The position numbers were made by a program, and so were the translations under genes. A stretch of 33,927 bases of DNA from a virus. Shown here piece after piece: positions 3,689 to 7,586 of the stretch (the stretch's first letter is position 1; each line of letters opens with the position of its first letter). Below the pieces are notes generated by a model, which was not told the DNA's origin, made no database searches, and worked only from the letters and a program-made list of their open reading frames with translations. Location: positions 1-33,927 of IMG/VR virus record IMGVR_UViG_3300047558_000103; one strand, written 5' to 3'.

Positions 3689-3951
3689 CGCACCGCCCAC
3701 AATTTCTTAACCACCTCGGCCAGCCGCAACCCAGCCGCCTCGCCACGTTTTTTCGTGATGCCATCAATGTACTCGCGCCGATCGTATTTGCTTGGCAACG
3801 AGATCACATGGCGAGCCTCGCACTCCTCGCGGTAATCCTCGCAGAAGTTGCAGACGTTGCGCCCGTCCGAGAGCGTCACCATCGGCCCTGTTTCGCATCG
3901 CTGGCATCCAAGGCACTCAGACACGGCGGGCCTCTTTTGCGTGGCGTGCAC
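3685..3951 (-). CDS. Small Cys-rich zinc-binding protein
   Basis: An 88-residue protein of unknown function. Cysteines at 13, 16, 19, 34, 37 and 44 form CxxCxxC and CxxC clusters, consistent with a zinc ribbon in the N-terminal half; the C-terminal half is basic and helical. It overlaps the end of the helicase gene by 35 bp with the ATG start. An alternative GTG start at 3924 would give a short GTGTCTGA overlap with the helicase stop and keep every cysteine. It lies between the helicase and VRR-NUC genes, so an accessory role in DNA replication or recombination is likely but unproven. Confidence 0.7.
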   Translation of the reverse strand: MHATQKRPAVSECLGCQRCETGPMVTLSDGRNVCNFCEDYREECEARHVISLPSKYDRREYIDGITKKRGEAAGLRLAEVVKKLWAVR

Positions 3952-5302
3952 GGAGAACGTGTCTTGCCCAGAGCTCTGGCCGCTTCATGCCTCGAGCGCG
4001 TCCGATTGCGACCAAGTCCTGCTCTGACTGCGCTCGCCCCTGCTCCATGCGTTTTGCCTTGGCGGCGGCTTGCAGGTCGATTTCTTGAAGTTCGCCGTCG
4101 ACTTGTTCAAGCACTCGTGTGTTTGGCTGAAATTCATGGCCGCATCCGCAGTGTGTCGCTAATGATGCGACAGTTGAAAAACAACTTGGACATGTCTTAA
4201 CTGACACCTCTGATTTTTTGTTGCTTTTGCGCTTTGCTTTTCCATCAATGCTCCACTCTCTAGCCAAAGCCGGAGGGCCATGCCTTTCAAGGTTCCCGCT
4301 GTGATCGAGAACGATGCAACAGTCTTTTCCTTGATGCGTACGAAGCCCACGACCAATTGATTGCAAATATTTCACAAGAGATTGTGTTGGTGCCAACATG
4401 ATGATGCAAGCGATAGATGGCACATCTACTCCGGCCACATACAGTGCGCAATTGCAAACAATATCTAACCTGCCATCGCGAAGCCCGCTTAGCGCAGCGT
4501 CTCGCTCAATTGGGTCTGATTCACCGGATACGGCAGTCGCTCGATAACCGGCGGCTTTGAATTCATCCGCAACGTGCTTTGCGTGCTCAATGGAAACGCA
4601 AAAAGCAACGGCTGGTCGTCCATGCGCAACCTTTTTATATTCGGCCACAGCACTTCCAGTAATTTTCGGCTTGTCCATTAACTGAGCAAGCTCATCTTTC
4701 GCAAAGTCACCACCACGACTTGATACTCCAGAAAGATCAACTGTCTGCGGCGCGTAATATTTGATCGGCGTCAAAAGTCCTTCATTAATCAAATCTTGAG
4801 TTGAGCAAGTTGGAATCAAAACGTCAGCGACCTCAGAAAGCCCGCGCCCATCCAAACGAACTGGCGTTGCAGTCAATAGCAATCGTTTTGCATCCGATGC
4901 CCACTTGATAATATCTTGGTAAGTATTGGCAACAGCCAGATGAGCTTCGTCGATGATTAGCAGCGTTGGCGGTTGGTATCGCGTCAACCTGCGCACAAGA
5001 GTTTGTACCATCACCAATTGAACTGGAAAATTTCTGTTCCCGTCATACCCAGCAGCAATCCAACCATGCGGTATGCCTTCGCTGATTAGACGTTTGCTTG
5101 TGTCGTTCAAGATTTCTTTCAGGTGAGCTAGGAACCAAACCTGATGGCCTTTTGCGATGGCGTTTTGAATCATCACAACTGCAGTTGCAGTTTTCCCGAA
5201 TCCAGTCGCGGCAACCAAAACAGGCGCTTTGTATCCTTGCCTGTAAGCGTTTCTAATGTCTTCGATTGCCTTTTCTTGGCGTGGTCTAAGAGTGATGCTC
5301 AT
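3917..5302 (-). CDS. SF2 DEAH-box DNA helicase
   Basis: A 461-residue superfamily 2 helicase. Motif I ATGFGKT is at 32-38, motif II DEAH at 118-121, motif III TATP at 144-147, and motif VI QSIGRGLRT at about 314-322. A C-terminal zinc ribbon follows (Cys371, 374, 385, 387), then a basic helical tail. The N-terminal Q-motif-like start is MSITLRPRQ. Such phage helicases remodel replication or recombination forks. Its ATG overlaps the HNH gene stop as ATGA. The start of another helicase gene (MTITLRPYQ) lies about 940 bp upstream beyond the HNH gene. By eye the DNA from about 4130 upstream is richer in A/T at third positions than the last 70 codons, suggesting a recombinant gene. Confidence 0.92.
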   Translation of the reverse strand: MSITLRPRQEKAIEDIRNAYRQGYKAPVLVAATGFGKTATAVVMIQNAIAKGHQVWFLAHLKEILNDTSKRLISEGIPHGWIAAGYDGNRNFPVQLVMVQTLVRRLTRYQPPTLLIIDEAHLAVANTYQDIIKWASDAKRLLLTATPVRLDGRGLSEVADVLIPTCSTQDLINEGLLTPIKYYAPQTVDLSGVSSRGGDFAKDELAQLMDKPKITGSAVAEYKKVAHGRPAVAFCVSIEHAKHVADEFKAAGYRATAVSGESDPIERDAALSGLRDGRLDIVCNCALYVAGVDVPSIACIIMLAPTQSLVKYLQSIGRGLRTHQGKDCCIVLDHSGNLERHGPPALAREWSIDGKAKRKSNKKSEVSVKTCPSCFSTVASLATHCGCGHEFQPNTRVLEQVDGELQEIDLQAAAKAKRMEQGRAQSEQDLVAIGRARGMKRPELWARHVLRARHAKEARRV

Positions 5303-6066
5303 GGCATGTCAGGCCAGTAACGGTTTCCCTTAGACTGGTTCTCTTGAGCAGAAATAATTTGCAGATTGGCTTCGCAGTGCAATCCAGACACCAATTTACT
5401 GATTAATGGAACTATGTGATCAACGTGGCAATGCTCACCAGCTGCGCGTCTAAGACGAGCCGATTTATAAATTTCATTCATCTTTGATTTGTCAGCCCAT
5501 TTTGGCTGTGCGGACTTAGCTTTAGCTGACCTCAAACGCTGACGCTGCGTTGATTTTTCTGGGTTTCTTTTTACCCAAGCGTTTGCAATTTCTTTCCTTC
5601 TATCTGGGTTAGCCTCTCGCCATTTCTTTGATCTTTGATTGGCTTGATCTTTATTCGCGGCTTGACGCTCTGACGCGCGTTTATTCAAACGCTCGCGATT
5701 AGCCATGTGGTAATCAGCCTTTATGCGCTTCAGATATTCTGCATTCTGAATTCTCCACTCTCTTGTGCATTGCTTGCATTTTGGTTGATACCCATATCCA
5801 GACTTTGCAAATTCGTTAGATTTTTTAATTTGCAAGCAACCTGTGCATACGATGCCATTAGAGAAAATCCGTGTTTTCGCTGTAATGCAACCACAAGATA
5901 GCACTCGCCCACTAGTGGAGTGTCTGCGAAGTTCTGTTGCACGCTTCACAATAGAAGTACCACACTCACAAACACATATCCAAAAAGCGCCATTGTCAGA
6001 ATGTGAATAACTTGATACAACAAGTCGTCCAAATTTTTGTCCAGCTAAATCAGTTGTTTTATTCAT
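5299..6066 (-). CDS. HNH homing-type endonuclease
   Basis: A 255-residue protein counted from the ATG at 6066. The N-terminal module (GQKFGRLVV followed by CVCECG and SCGC) is the Cys-rich DNA-recognition module often found in phage HNH homing enzymes. A second Cys pair set (74/77, 97/100) follows, then a Lys/Arg-rich region with repeated NP-containing helices. The C-terminal HNH nuclease has DHIVPL (Asp216, His217), GLHCEANLQ (Asn234) and ENQSKGN (Asn243). It is predicted to nick or cut a specific site and promote its own spread. No good ribosome binding site precedes 6066. The frame is open further upstream to the ATG at 6243, so it may be made as a 314-residue fusion carrying the remnant helicase start. 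Confidence 0.88.
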   Translation of the reverse strand: MNKTTDLAGQKFGRLVVSSYSHSDNGAFWICVCECGTSIVKRATELRRHSTSGRVLSCGCITAKTRIFSNGIVCTGCLQIKKSNEFAKSGYGYQPKCKQCTREWRIQNAEYLKRIKADYHMANRERLNKRASERQAANKDQANQRSKKWREANPDRRKEIANAWVKRNPEKSTQRQRLRSAKAKSAQPKWADKSKMNEIYKSARLRRAAGEHCHVDHIVPLISKLVSGLHCEANLQIISAQENQSKGNRYWPDMP

Positions 6067-6079
6067 TTTGCAAATAAAA

Positions 6080-6179
6080 AAACCCAAGGCGGAACTCTCA
6101 TTCTTTCGAATGTTGGCGGACTGGTCAGTACCAGCAGAGTCCCGTCTTGGGTTTACTGAGAAATCGCCGCCAAGCGATT
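6080..6179 (-). ncRNA. Candidate structured RNA with pseudoknot upstream of the HNH gene
   Basis: On the minus strand a 6-bp hairpin (6179-6174 with 6167-6162) has the 6-nt loop TTGGCG at 6173-6168. Downstream, 6154-6137 pairs with 6097-6080 in an 18-position stem (one A-C mismatch, one G-U). Inside it are a 5-bp hairpin (6134-6121, loop ACTG) and a 5-bp hairpin (6112-6099) with a GAAA tetraloop, giving a three-way junction. The strand between them contains CGCCAA (6118-6113), exactly complementary to the first hairpin's loop. The long stem is followed by a T run, so it could also terminate transcription. All pairs are visible in the sequence; function is unknown. Confidence 0.6.
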
Positions 6180-6243
6180 GTTGAATCTTACCACGCGTGC
6201 GCTCAATAAGCGTGTTTTGATATGGGCGGAGGGTGATGGTCAT
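6162..6243 (-). pseudogene. Remnant start of a displaced SF2 helicase gene
   Basis: The ATG at 6243 overlaps the methyltransferase stop as ATGA, the spacing expected for the next operon gene. It encodes MTITLRPYQ followed by an LIERTR helix, typical of the first 20-25 residues of phage SF2 helicases and similar to the MSITLRPRQ start of the intact helicase at 5302. After about codon 25 the helicase resemblance ends, before any Walker A motif, at the hairpin of the RNA candidate. The frame then continues in phase through that element into the HNH gene. I read it as the 5' end of the original helicase, cut off by insertion or replacement. Confidence 0.6.
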
Positions 6244-7586
6244 TTTGGTGCCCCAGAGATTTCCAAGGCCAAGTTGATTCGTTCTCCAATCCATCGCACC
6301 ACAGGCACAGCCCATGAGTTGCCAAGCGCCTTGTATCGAGGCCCATCAGGACACTGGTCACGGTCAGGCCCACTCAGCGTCATGCCCTTAACGGCCAGCA
6401 TTGCCTCGTAACTGATTCCTTTACGTGCGGCTTCCTGATAGGTTCTCCACGGAATGTTTGTATAGTTGTCTGGGAAGCCTTGCAGGCGCTCGCATTCGAC
6501 TGGGGTTAGCCTGCGCACAGCCATTGACGCGTAAACCGCATGGCTGTGCCCCTTAGTTAAAGTAAAAGAAGGGTCGCCAGCTTCACCAATCCCAAAACCT
6601 GTGCGTTCACCAAGCTGATTGTGACGAGTTGCAATCATTGTGTTAATCGGCATCGCCTGCATTAATGCGTTTTCGCCTCCATTATTTCGCCCAAGCGTAA
6701 ACGCAAGGCCATCGCTTACGCATGGGTCTTGAGTTCCGTGAACAACAAAATCCTCACTCTCGAAGTCATAGCGCATGTTGCCGCCAGCCGTAAGACATTT
6801 GGCTGTTTGAACTGTCACGCAGAAGTCGAGTTCGTTGGCGTTTCCTGCGGGCCGATTGAGTCCGCCACCATTCGCAGTGAGCGTTCCAGCGCACTCGGTA
6901 ACGTCTTTTTTCGTTTCTCTGCTCGGCGCAAAATCCCTGCGCAGGCCATCGAACTCAAAAAGAACCGAGGCGGGATCGAATCCGTTTCGAGCACTTGCGA
7001 CAACGAACACACGTCTGCGACGTTGGGCCACTCCGAAATATTGGGCGTCAAGAATGCGCCACGCGACTGCTCTTTTGGGGCCAAACACAGCACCAGCGTT
7101 CGACCATTTTTCCCCTGACGGGACAAGTGGCTCATCTTCTCCGGCAAGTCCTGCAAGAAAGCAGCCGAAGGCGTTATCTTTGGTGCTGAGAACCCCTGGG
7201 ACGTTTTCCCAAAAAATGATGGCTGGCTCAAGTCCAATTCCATCTCTGGCAGTGTCAATTGCATTTGCTATCTCGCAAAAAGTTAGTGAAAGATTGCCGC
7301 GCTCATCGTCAAGCGACTTGCGTGTTCCGGCAACGCTGAATGCTTGGCATGGTGTGCCGCCGCAAAATAAATCTGGCGCTTCGACCTCTCCGCTTGAGAT
7401 GCGGTTGGGCAACGTTGTCATGTCGCCAAGGTTGGGAACGTCAGGATAGTGGTGCGCAAGCACCGCGCTTGGAAACGGCTCAATCTCAGACAGCCAAGCG
7501 GCCTTCCAGCCAAGCGGATGCCAAGCGACCGAAGCGGCCTCAATGCCTGAGCAAACAGAGCCGAATTTAATCACTCGACCACGCAA
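6240..7586 (-). CDS. C5-cytosine DNA methyltransferase (Dcm-like)
   Basis: A 448-residue C5-cytosine methyltransferase with the family motifs in order: I, FGSVCSGIEAAS (8-19); IV, GGTPCQAFS with catalytic Cys80; VI, WENVPGV (Glu127); VIII, QRRRRVFVVA (188-197); a target-recognition region of about 140 residues; IX, RRLTPVECERLQGFPDNY; and X, YKALGNSWAVPVV. It probably protects phage DNA from host restriction; no partner restriction enzyme is present. The start is a TTG at 7586, 7 nt after GGAGG; a GTG at 7574 overlapping the upstream stop as GTGA is the alternative. The sequence specificity cannot be read from the protein by eye. Confidence 0.93.
   Translation of the reverse strand: MRGRVIKFGSVCSGIEAASVAWHPLGWKAAWLSEIEPFPSAVLAHHYPDVPNLGDMTTLPNRISSGEVEAPDLFCGGTPCQAFSVAGTRKSLDDERGNLSLTFCEIANAIDTARDGIGLEPAIIFWENVPGVLSTKDNAFGCFLAGLAGEDEPLVPSGEKWSNAGAVFGPKRAVAWRILDAQYFGVAQRRRRVFVVASARNGFDPASVLFEFDGLRRDFAPSRETKKDVTECAGTLTANGGGLNRPAGNANELDFCVTVQTAKCLTAGGNMRYDFESEDFVVHGTQDPCVSDGLAFTLGRNNGGENALMQAMPINTMIATRHNQLGERTGFGIGEAGDPSFTLTKGHSHAVYASMAVRRLTPVECERLQGFPDNYTNIPWRTYQEAARKGISYEAMLAVKGMTLSGPDRDQCPDGPRYKALGNSWAVPVVRWIGERINLALEISGAPK

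Follow-up and report, generated by a model that had tools for sequence, protein, structure and literature searches.

A double-pseudoknot RNA family upstream of replication and homing-endonuclease genes in phages, and its possible role as a portable leader

Several described RNAs resemble the element reported here in position, fold or sequence. The c4 RNA of phage P1 and the CI RNA of P4 have free antisense loops and are processed from a leader. The put RNA of phage HK022 suppresses termination and is without a terminator of its own. In the repZ leader, a UUGGCG loop pairs with CGCCAA and controls a replication gene, and in the pistol ribozyme the 6-nt loop of a 5' hairpin reaches into the junction of a closing stem and pairs there. 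The c4 RNA acts by blocking the ribosome-binding site of ant (PMC12197685); putRNA, a nascent, structure-only RNA of early operons, acts alone (PMC9378689); and a 5'-rUUGGCG-3' loop is reported for the repZ leader pseudoknot of the IncI-alpha and IncB plasmids (titles cited in PMC10724649). The int-alpA RNA (RF02996) resembles the present element in location, since RNAs that match it precede the same replication gene in sister phages, and no sequence or structural relation between the two was seen.

The window is the complete 33,927-nt stretch of viral DNA analysed (IMG/VR record IMGVR_UViG_3300047558_000103). A preliminary description of it had proposed a compact pseudoknotted RNA on the minus strand. 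The perfect hairpin, its loop TTGGCG, the complementary CGCCAA, the plain hairpin, the GAAA-capped hairpin and the T-run that it named are all present on that strand, as is the closing stem (6154-6136 / 6098-6080), in which 18 pairs are interrupted by a single A x C mismatch, where 17 pairs had been counted before. A second pseudoknot, absent from that description, is formed by UCAGUA (6159-6154) and UACUGA (6130-6125). The parts of the element, with the covariation results explained below, are as follows.

6075..6180, minus strand: whole RNA element; covariance-model match of 107.8 bits (model R1) and 104.7 bits (model R2)
6185..6193, minus strand: predicted promoter element of the extended -10 type, TGGTAAGAT, separated from P1 by 5 nt; the imported cassette begins with these bases
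6162..6179, minus strand: P1 hairpin AAUCGC-UUGGCG-GCGAUU; two-sided changes in 3 of 5 counted pairs
6168..6173, minus strand: 5' strand of pseudoknot PK1, loop UUGGCG; partner CGCCAA at 6118-6113; 100% paired in 30 sequences
6154..6159, minus strand: 5' strand of pseudoknot PK2, UCAGUA, in the P1-P2 linker; two-sided changes in 6 of 7 pairs; permutation test 0/2000
6136..6154, minus strand: 5' strand of P2, the closing terminator-like stem; two-sided changes in 14 of 18 P2 pairs
6120..6135, minus strand: P3 hairpin G-CUGG-UACUGA-CCAG-U; two-sided changes in 3 of 5 pairs
6125..6130, minus strand: 3' strand of PK2, which is the P3 loop UACUGA; covariation and permutation test
6113..6118, minus strand: 3' strand of PK1, CGCCAA; covariation; possible anti-Shine-Dalgarno strand in relatives
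6100..6111, minus strand: P4 hairpin AUUC-GAAA-GAAU; two-sided changes in 3 of 4 pairs
6080..6098, minus strand: 3' strand of P2; fold and covariation
6076..6082, minus strand: T-run after P2, a terminator-like 3' end, of which 6082-6080 also pair within P2

Nucleotide A6154 may alternatively find its partner in P2 instead of PK2. The fold of the window copy has a minimum free energy of -44.9 kcal/mol (z = -5.2), and none of 200 dinucleotide shuffles was as stable; together with the covariation in the 30-sequence alignment, this bears out the earlier suggestion that the nesting exceeds chance. The minus strand is taken as the RNA strand because conserved G.U pairs fit it and the opposite strand gives weak covariance-model scores (11-19 versus 55-130 bits).

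Covariation was analyzed in 30 diverse sequences (alignment A7, picked for diversity), aligned with MAFFT and not fitted to the structure. Standard pairs occupy 96.8% of the cells, and 32 of the 45 pairs show two-sided changes, compared with 15.2 +- 1.9 in column shuffles (0/500), which do not correct for relatedness. When the partners were slid by 1-3 columns, a control that preserves relatedness, 3-10 pairs showed such changes. The covariation score is 0.417, against 0.142 for shuffled columns and at most 0.09 for slid partners. P1, P2, P3 and P4 each covary. PK1 is invariant as UUGGCG/CGCCAA except in one divergent sequence (L266), on which its covariation rests, where UGGGGA/UCCCCA changes three pairs on both sides and keeps all six. 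PK2 covaries in many members, with 5' variants that include CUCAGUA, CACAGUA, CGUAGUA, CGCAAUA, CUUAGUG, UAGGCA, GAGUAA, CUAGUA and others, and in every case the P3 loop of the same RNA is complementary; the mean PK2 helix score over 21 distinct combinations is 6.0, versus 4.52 +- 0.18 with the loops exchanged (0/2000). A later find (L357) carries, by reading of its sequence, a further variant, CAGAUAA/UUAUCUG. The window copy has P1 to P4 and both pseudoknots with compensatory changes, at 104.7-107.8 bits, and is framed by the -10 element before P1 and the T-run after P2. The preliminary description had made its RNA depend on compensatory changes among homologues, and all helices covary clearly across the relatives. 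By this comparative evidence, the minus-strand structure is a real RNA family with a double-pseudoknot, three-way-junction fold in which both pseudoknots are supported by covariation.

Besides the window, the family comprises about 70 phage contigs of IMG/VR and two GenBank phages. The Manatee Spring phages MW202462 and MW202544 each proved by blastn to carry a diverged copy; L006 was found by a DNA pattern, and a pattern of hairpin, linker and pseudoknot strand gave 15 true IMG/VR contigs among 32 matches. Covariance model R1 located copies upstream of helicases at 5 loci and, among 77 loci chosen solely by their replication-initiator protein, detected the RNA in 51; model R2 found a copy upstream of a remote HNH gene (L357). 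All members except two virome genomes are metagenomic, and the collections were scanned with patterns from known members, which may miss remote ones. A pattern scan that relaxed P1, P2 and PK1 gave no further members, and in a scan of genome contigs no member was recognised by eye among the matches listed. Covariance models found no copy in about 1,200 Pseudomonadota genomes, in a run without a positive control, nor was one found in the plasmids searched. The RNA was also absent from MW202640 and from cultured phages whose replication protein is related (Xanthomonas PBR31, Limnohabitans DC33 and Vibrio phiV208). The DC33 record (PQ492659.1) is classed as Inoviridae, yet it spans 39 kb with a lambda-like replication region and looks misclassified.

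The preliminary description could name no known family. With Rfam 15, no family reached its gathering cut-off in the window or in the other family members searched, and a permissive search gave sub-threshold matches only. Among these, STAXI RNA (RF01728; 24.3 bits versus a cut-off of 40.5) matched the window, over half of the RNA plus HNH coding sequence that forms half of the match, and none of the other members tested, and is ascribed to chance, as is an SPO1 match at E = 0.3 that lies inside a coding gene. No family-A member searched matched int-alpA. No prior description was found in a small open-access literature, and an earlier one elsewhere is possible. The element of about 105 nt is, on the searches made here, a new family among phage leader and regulatory RNAs.

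The PK1 loop hexamer is identical to that given for the IncI-alpha/IncB repZ leader. The repZ pseudoknot activates repZ translation in competition with an antisense RNA, whereas no antisense RNA, second pseudoknot or terminator appears to be shared with the RNA described here; the common hexamer is probably convergence on a good loop. The pairing of a hairpin loop into a junction and the compact multi-pseudoknot fold also resemble a self-cleaving ribozyme of pistol-like topology. That the RNA is such a ribozyme is very improbable: it has the extra hairpin P3 and the second pseudoknot, a ribozyme would not be expected to end in a terminator-like structure, its conserved nucleotides lie mostly inside helices and are partly changed in L266, and neither pistol nor any other self-cleaving ribozyme model matched the family members searched at E<=10.

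A TAnnnT hexamer with at least 4/6 matches to TATAAT occurs within 17 nt before P1 in 26 of 29 non-redundant upstream flanks, versus 1/29 in each of three control windows; at the -10 site of the window itself, a generic promoter scanner reported no full -35/-10 promoter. A T-run lies 3' of P2 in every aligned family member. The distance from the RNA end to the next start codon is 8-16 nt in all 48 aligned members, whatever the gene (9 nt to the HNH start codon in the window), and every member found by sequence pattern alone still abuts a same-strand open reading frame. Given the -10 element and the T-run, the natural product would be an RNA of about 105 nt, or a leader if transcription reads through, and we infer from these signals that the RNA is its own transcription unit, from the -10 element to the terminator-like stem. 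That every aligned member has the closing stem followed by the T-run could also be explained by a strong intrinsic terminator or insulator between the early and replication genes, with pseudoknots that just stabilise it. For this purpose a plain hairpin would suffice, and neither two covarying pseudoknots nor a promoter would be needed, which leaves little room for such an explanation.

Most copies are located directly upstream of a phage replication-initiator gene, without any HNH gene. The usual layout is lambda-like: recombination genes of opposite orientation come first, then a Cro-like regulator, and the RNA separates this regulator from the replication gene, whose product is assigned by PHROG or Pfam as O-like, DUF1376, HTH_36 or DnaD-like. 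A promoter-proximal position in a lambda-like early operon and the conservation of structure rather than sequence are features in common with HK022 put, and putRNA offers a precedent for a nascent RNA that acts alone. A put-like RNA, which would bind RNA polymerase and suppress downstream termination or pausing, is nevertheless improbable here, since the element itself ends in a terminator-like stem and T-run, unlike put, and occurs as one copy per phage beside the replication gene, not beside the early promoter of the operon.

Other copies precede HNH or GIY-YIG homing endonucleases, and in several phages the endonuclease sits exactly between the RNA and the next replication gene. The enzymes include a GIY-YIG endonuclease (L010), an AP2/HNH_3 endonuclease (L036), an HNH_3 protein (L006), endonuclease VII/HNH-like proteins (the window and L196-L198) and HNH-like endonucleases recognised by eye without a Pfam match (L021/L029 and L266). 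The RNA is therefore not tied to one endonuclease family. It was found at only 6 of 80 HNH-relative loci, and many helicase phages have no such RNA. The preliminary description had linked the element to HNH genes and let its absence next to related HNH genes count against it; that absence is largely what was found, so that the HNH link is lost while the RNA itself stands. The HNH proteins of L196, L197, L198, L357 and the window, which otherwise differ, have the C-terminal end WPDMP in common, and in L196-L198 and the window the HNH stop codon overlaps the helicase start (ATGCCATGA).

How the RNA reached its position in the window is revealed by L240, a close relative of the window phage that is 91-99% identical around the site and has an empty site. 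The following features are involved.

6194..6243, minus strand: remnant of the 5' end of the resident helicase gene (MTITLRPYQNTLIERTR), which continues uninterrupted in L240
4221..6193, minus strand: imported segment with promoter, RNA, HNH gene and N-terminal helicase part (blastn of the window against L240)
5299..6066, minus strand: HNH/endonuclease VII-like homing-endonuclease candidate of 255 aa (PHROGs)
3917..5302, minus strand: intact DNA helicase with its own start, the N-terminal part imported and the C-terminal part resident

Positions 6194-6350 of the window are 98.7% identical to L240, whose helicase gene continues with neither the RNA nor the HNH gene in it. The blastn homology breaks off at 6194, with the -10 element beginning one base later, and is found again from 4220 within the helicase, the imported segment having replaced 1,035 bp of the resident gene. 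This alignment shows that promoter, RNA, HNH gene and helicase part entered the resident helicase gene together, as a single block. The broken helicase start of the preliminary description is thereby accounted for by the remnant. Its comparison with exon-intron pairing does not hold: the loop side belongs to P1 of the RNA itself and is conserved in phages without an interrupted gene, and the 5' part of the gene is a resident remnant upstream of the imported segment. The empty site of L240 also means that the element is not an intron; no Rfam group I or II intron matched, and a segment was replaced with a complete helicase left downstream. An open frame runs from the remnant through the whole RNA into the HNH gene (6243-5299, about 314 codons), as it also does in L006, and a remnant-HNH fusion could be made.

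In L264 (about 1835-2500), the order is RNA A (the present family), an HNH-type endonuclease, an int-alpA-like RNA B and the replication gene; its relative L267 is without RNA A and the endonuclease, so that only RNA B precedes the replication gene there. In L357, the RNA and an HNH gene lie between unrelated genes. From the window/L240 and L264/L267 pairs and L357 it follows that RNA and endonuclease move as a block; homing by the HNH enzyme presumably drove the transfer. These moves into three unrelated places (the helicase gene, before RNA B, and an intergenic site) would suit an RNA that is a functional part of the mobile element, as a guide, processing signal or self-cleaving end. We give low odds to that role, considering that the endonucleases belong to unrelated families (HNH, AP2/HNH_3, GIY-YIG) and that most copies keep the fold without any endonuclease, in line with the scarcity at HNH-relative loci given above. 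A HEARO/omegaRNA identity found no support: there was no Rfam match, the downstream protein is endonuclease VII/HNH-like by PHROGs, and homologous copies precede unrelated genes.

Our preferred reading, to which we assign a probability of about 0.5, is that the RNA may be a portable cis-acting leader or attenuator that gates the next gene. It is favoured by the near-fixed place of the promoter element, the steady distance to the start codon, the replication genes as clients and the complementarity of the PK1 strand described below; its nearest analogues in function would be the P1 c4 and P4 CI immunity RNAs and HK022 put. In a locked knot, P2 and the T-run would end transcription, and a stem would lie within the ribosome's reach of the start codon. 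The CCGCCAA strand, held by the P1 loop in PK1, could in most relatives face UUGG of the downstream ribosome-binding site, and the state of the knot and translation could be linked through this strand. The natural client would be the replication initiator of lambda-like early operons, from which homing endonucleases may have borrowed the leader. No mutually exclusive antiterminator pairing was noticed in the RNA, so that opening of the gate may need a protein. Of the preliminary description, the compact pseudoknotted RNA of no known family stands, and its translational or terminator-switch reading is retained as a plausible one.

In 42 of 48 members, the downstream ribosome-binding site contains a UUGG to which the PK1 strand is complementary; the match mostly covers only 4 bp and is partly explained by the T-run plus GG. 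Stronger complementarity is found in L304 (8 bp) and in L266 (7 bp, with both sides changed). The window copy is without UUGG at its ribosome-binding site and reaches no more than 3 bp; the step of pairing with the Shine-Dalgarno sequence therefore cannot be general. In L266, the P1 hairpin sequence TTGCTGGGGAGCAA (about 1752-1766) recurs unchanged where the downstream endonuclease gene has its ribosome-binding site (about 1857-1870).

The terminated 105-nt RNA could equally act in trans. It would then accumulate as an immunity or copy-control RNA like phage P1 c4 or P4 CI and, by pairing at the ribosome-binding site, would shut off the replication gene of the phage that encodes it or of a superinfecting one. 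It resembles c4 and CI as a small structured RNA that heads an operon it may control and may pair with a ribosome-binding site, and c4 provides the precedent in its block of ant (PMC12197685). Promoter and terminator signals of its own would give a discrete small RNA, the complementarity between PK1 strand and Shine-Dalgarno sequence co-changes in L266, and PK2 and the class of RNA differ between sister phages, as incompatibility determinants do. In contrast to the free antisense loops of c4 and CI, all loops of the present RNA are tied up in its two pseudoknots, with no free seed, and it has its own terminator; most members offer only 4 bp to the Shine-Dalgarno sequence, and the RNA was never found away from a downstream gene. 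We consider this main rival somewhat unlikely, and the put-like, ribozyme and endonuclease-guide readings less likely than it.

Other RNAs fill the same slot in sister phages that lack RNA A, which counts in favour of the leader reading. Among 26 replication-gene loci without RNA A, 20 match a sequence search for another RNA (RNA B, class B), which was recognised by eye in three more loci without RNA A (L299, L300 and L312). Class B RNAs are small and promoter-preceded, and also occur before homing endonucleases in L318 and L337. The int-alpA model matches 8 of 10 class B loci tested, with L278 at 36.0 bits versus the cut-off of 35.8 and the seven others below it; within the slot, only these class B sister RNAs match. 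The int-alpA-like RNAs (L267, L278, L283, L284, L289, L306, L313 and L338, at about 2400-2500, or about 220-315 in L283) lie directly upstream of replication-initiator genes, not between int and alpA. In class B, the main loop complements two stretches, one directly 3' of the closing stem and the other at the ribosome-binding site, in each case only modestly more than in exchanged pairs; for the ribosome-binding site, the values are 5.18 versus 4.66 +- 0.2 in exchanged pairs (p about 0.01, 11 distinct loops), a result that speaks for action in trans. In L307 (about 2370-2490), a third, unrelated structured leader is located in the slot, followed by a T-run and a Shine-Dalgarno sequence, and its hairpin loop GGACAAG is complementary to CUUGUCC in a second hairpin.

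We tentatively propose, as a possibility that is still doubtful, that phage replication modules have a slot reserved for structured RNAs, where unrelated classes (the double-pseudoknot class, int-alpA-like RNAs and perhaps more) are swapped like immunity cassettes. One strand of each would pair either within the RNA, as part of a pseudoknot, or with the ribosome-binding site that serves the replication gene. This would amount to an RNA-only replication control, captured by homing endonucleases as a portable expression leader.

The present work adds a well-supported RNA family to phage biology, at a place that may govern the start of DNA replication. It joins three topics that have been studied separately, namely the leader RNAs of early operons, orphan RNAs such as int-alpA, and the control of homing-endonuclease expression. 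Because sister phages carry differing RNAs in the same slot, a role in immunity versus one in replication timing is directly testable by swapping them.
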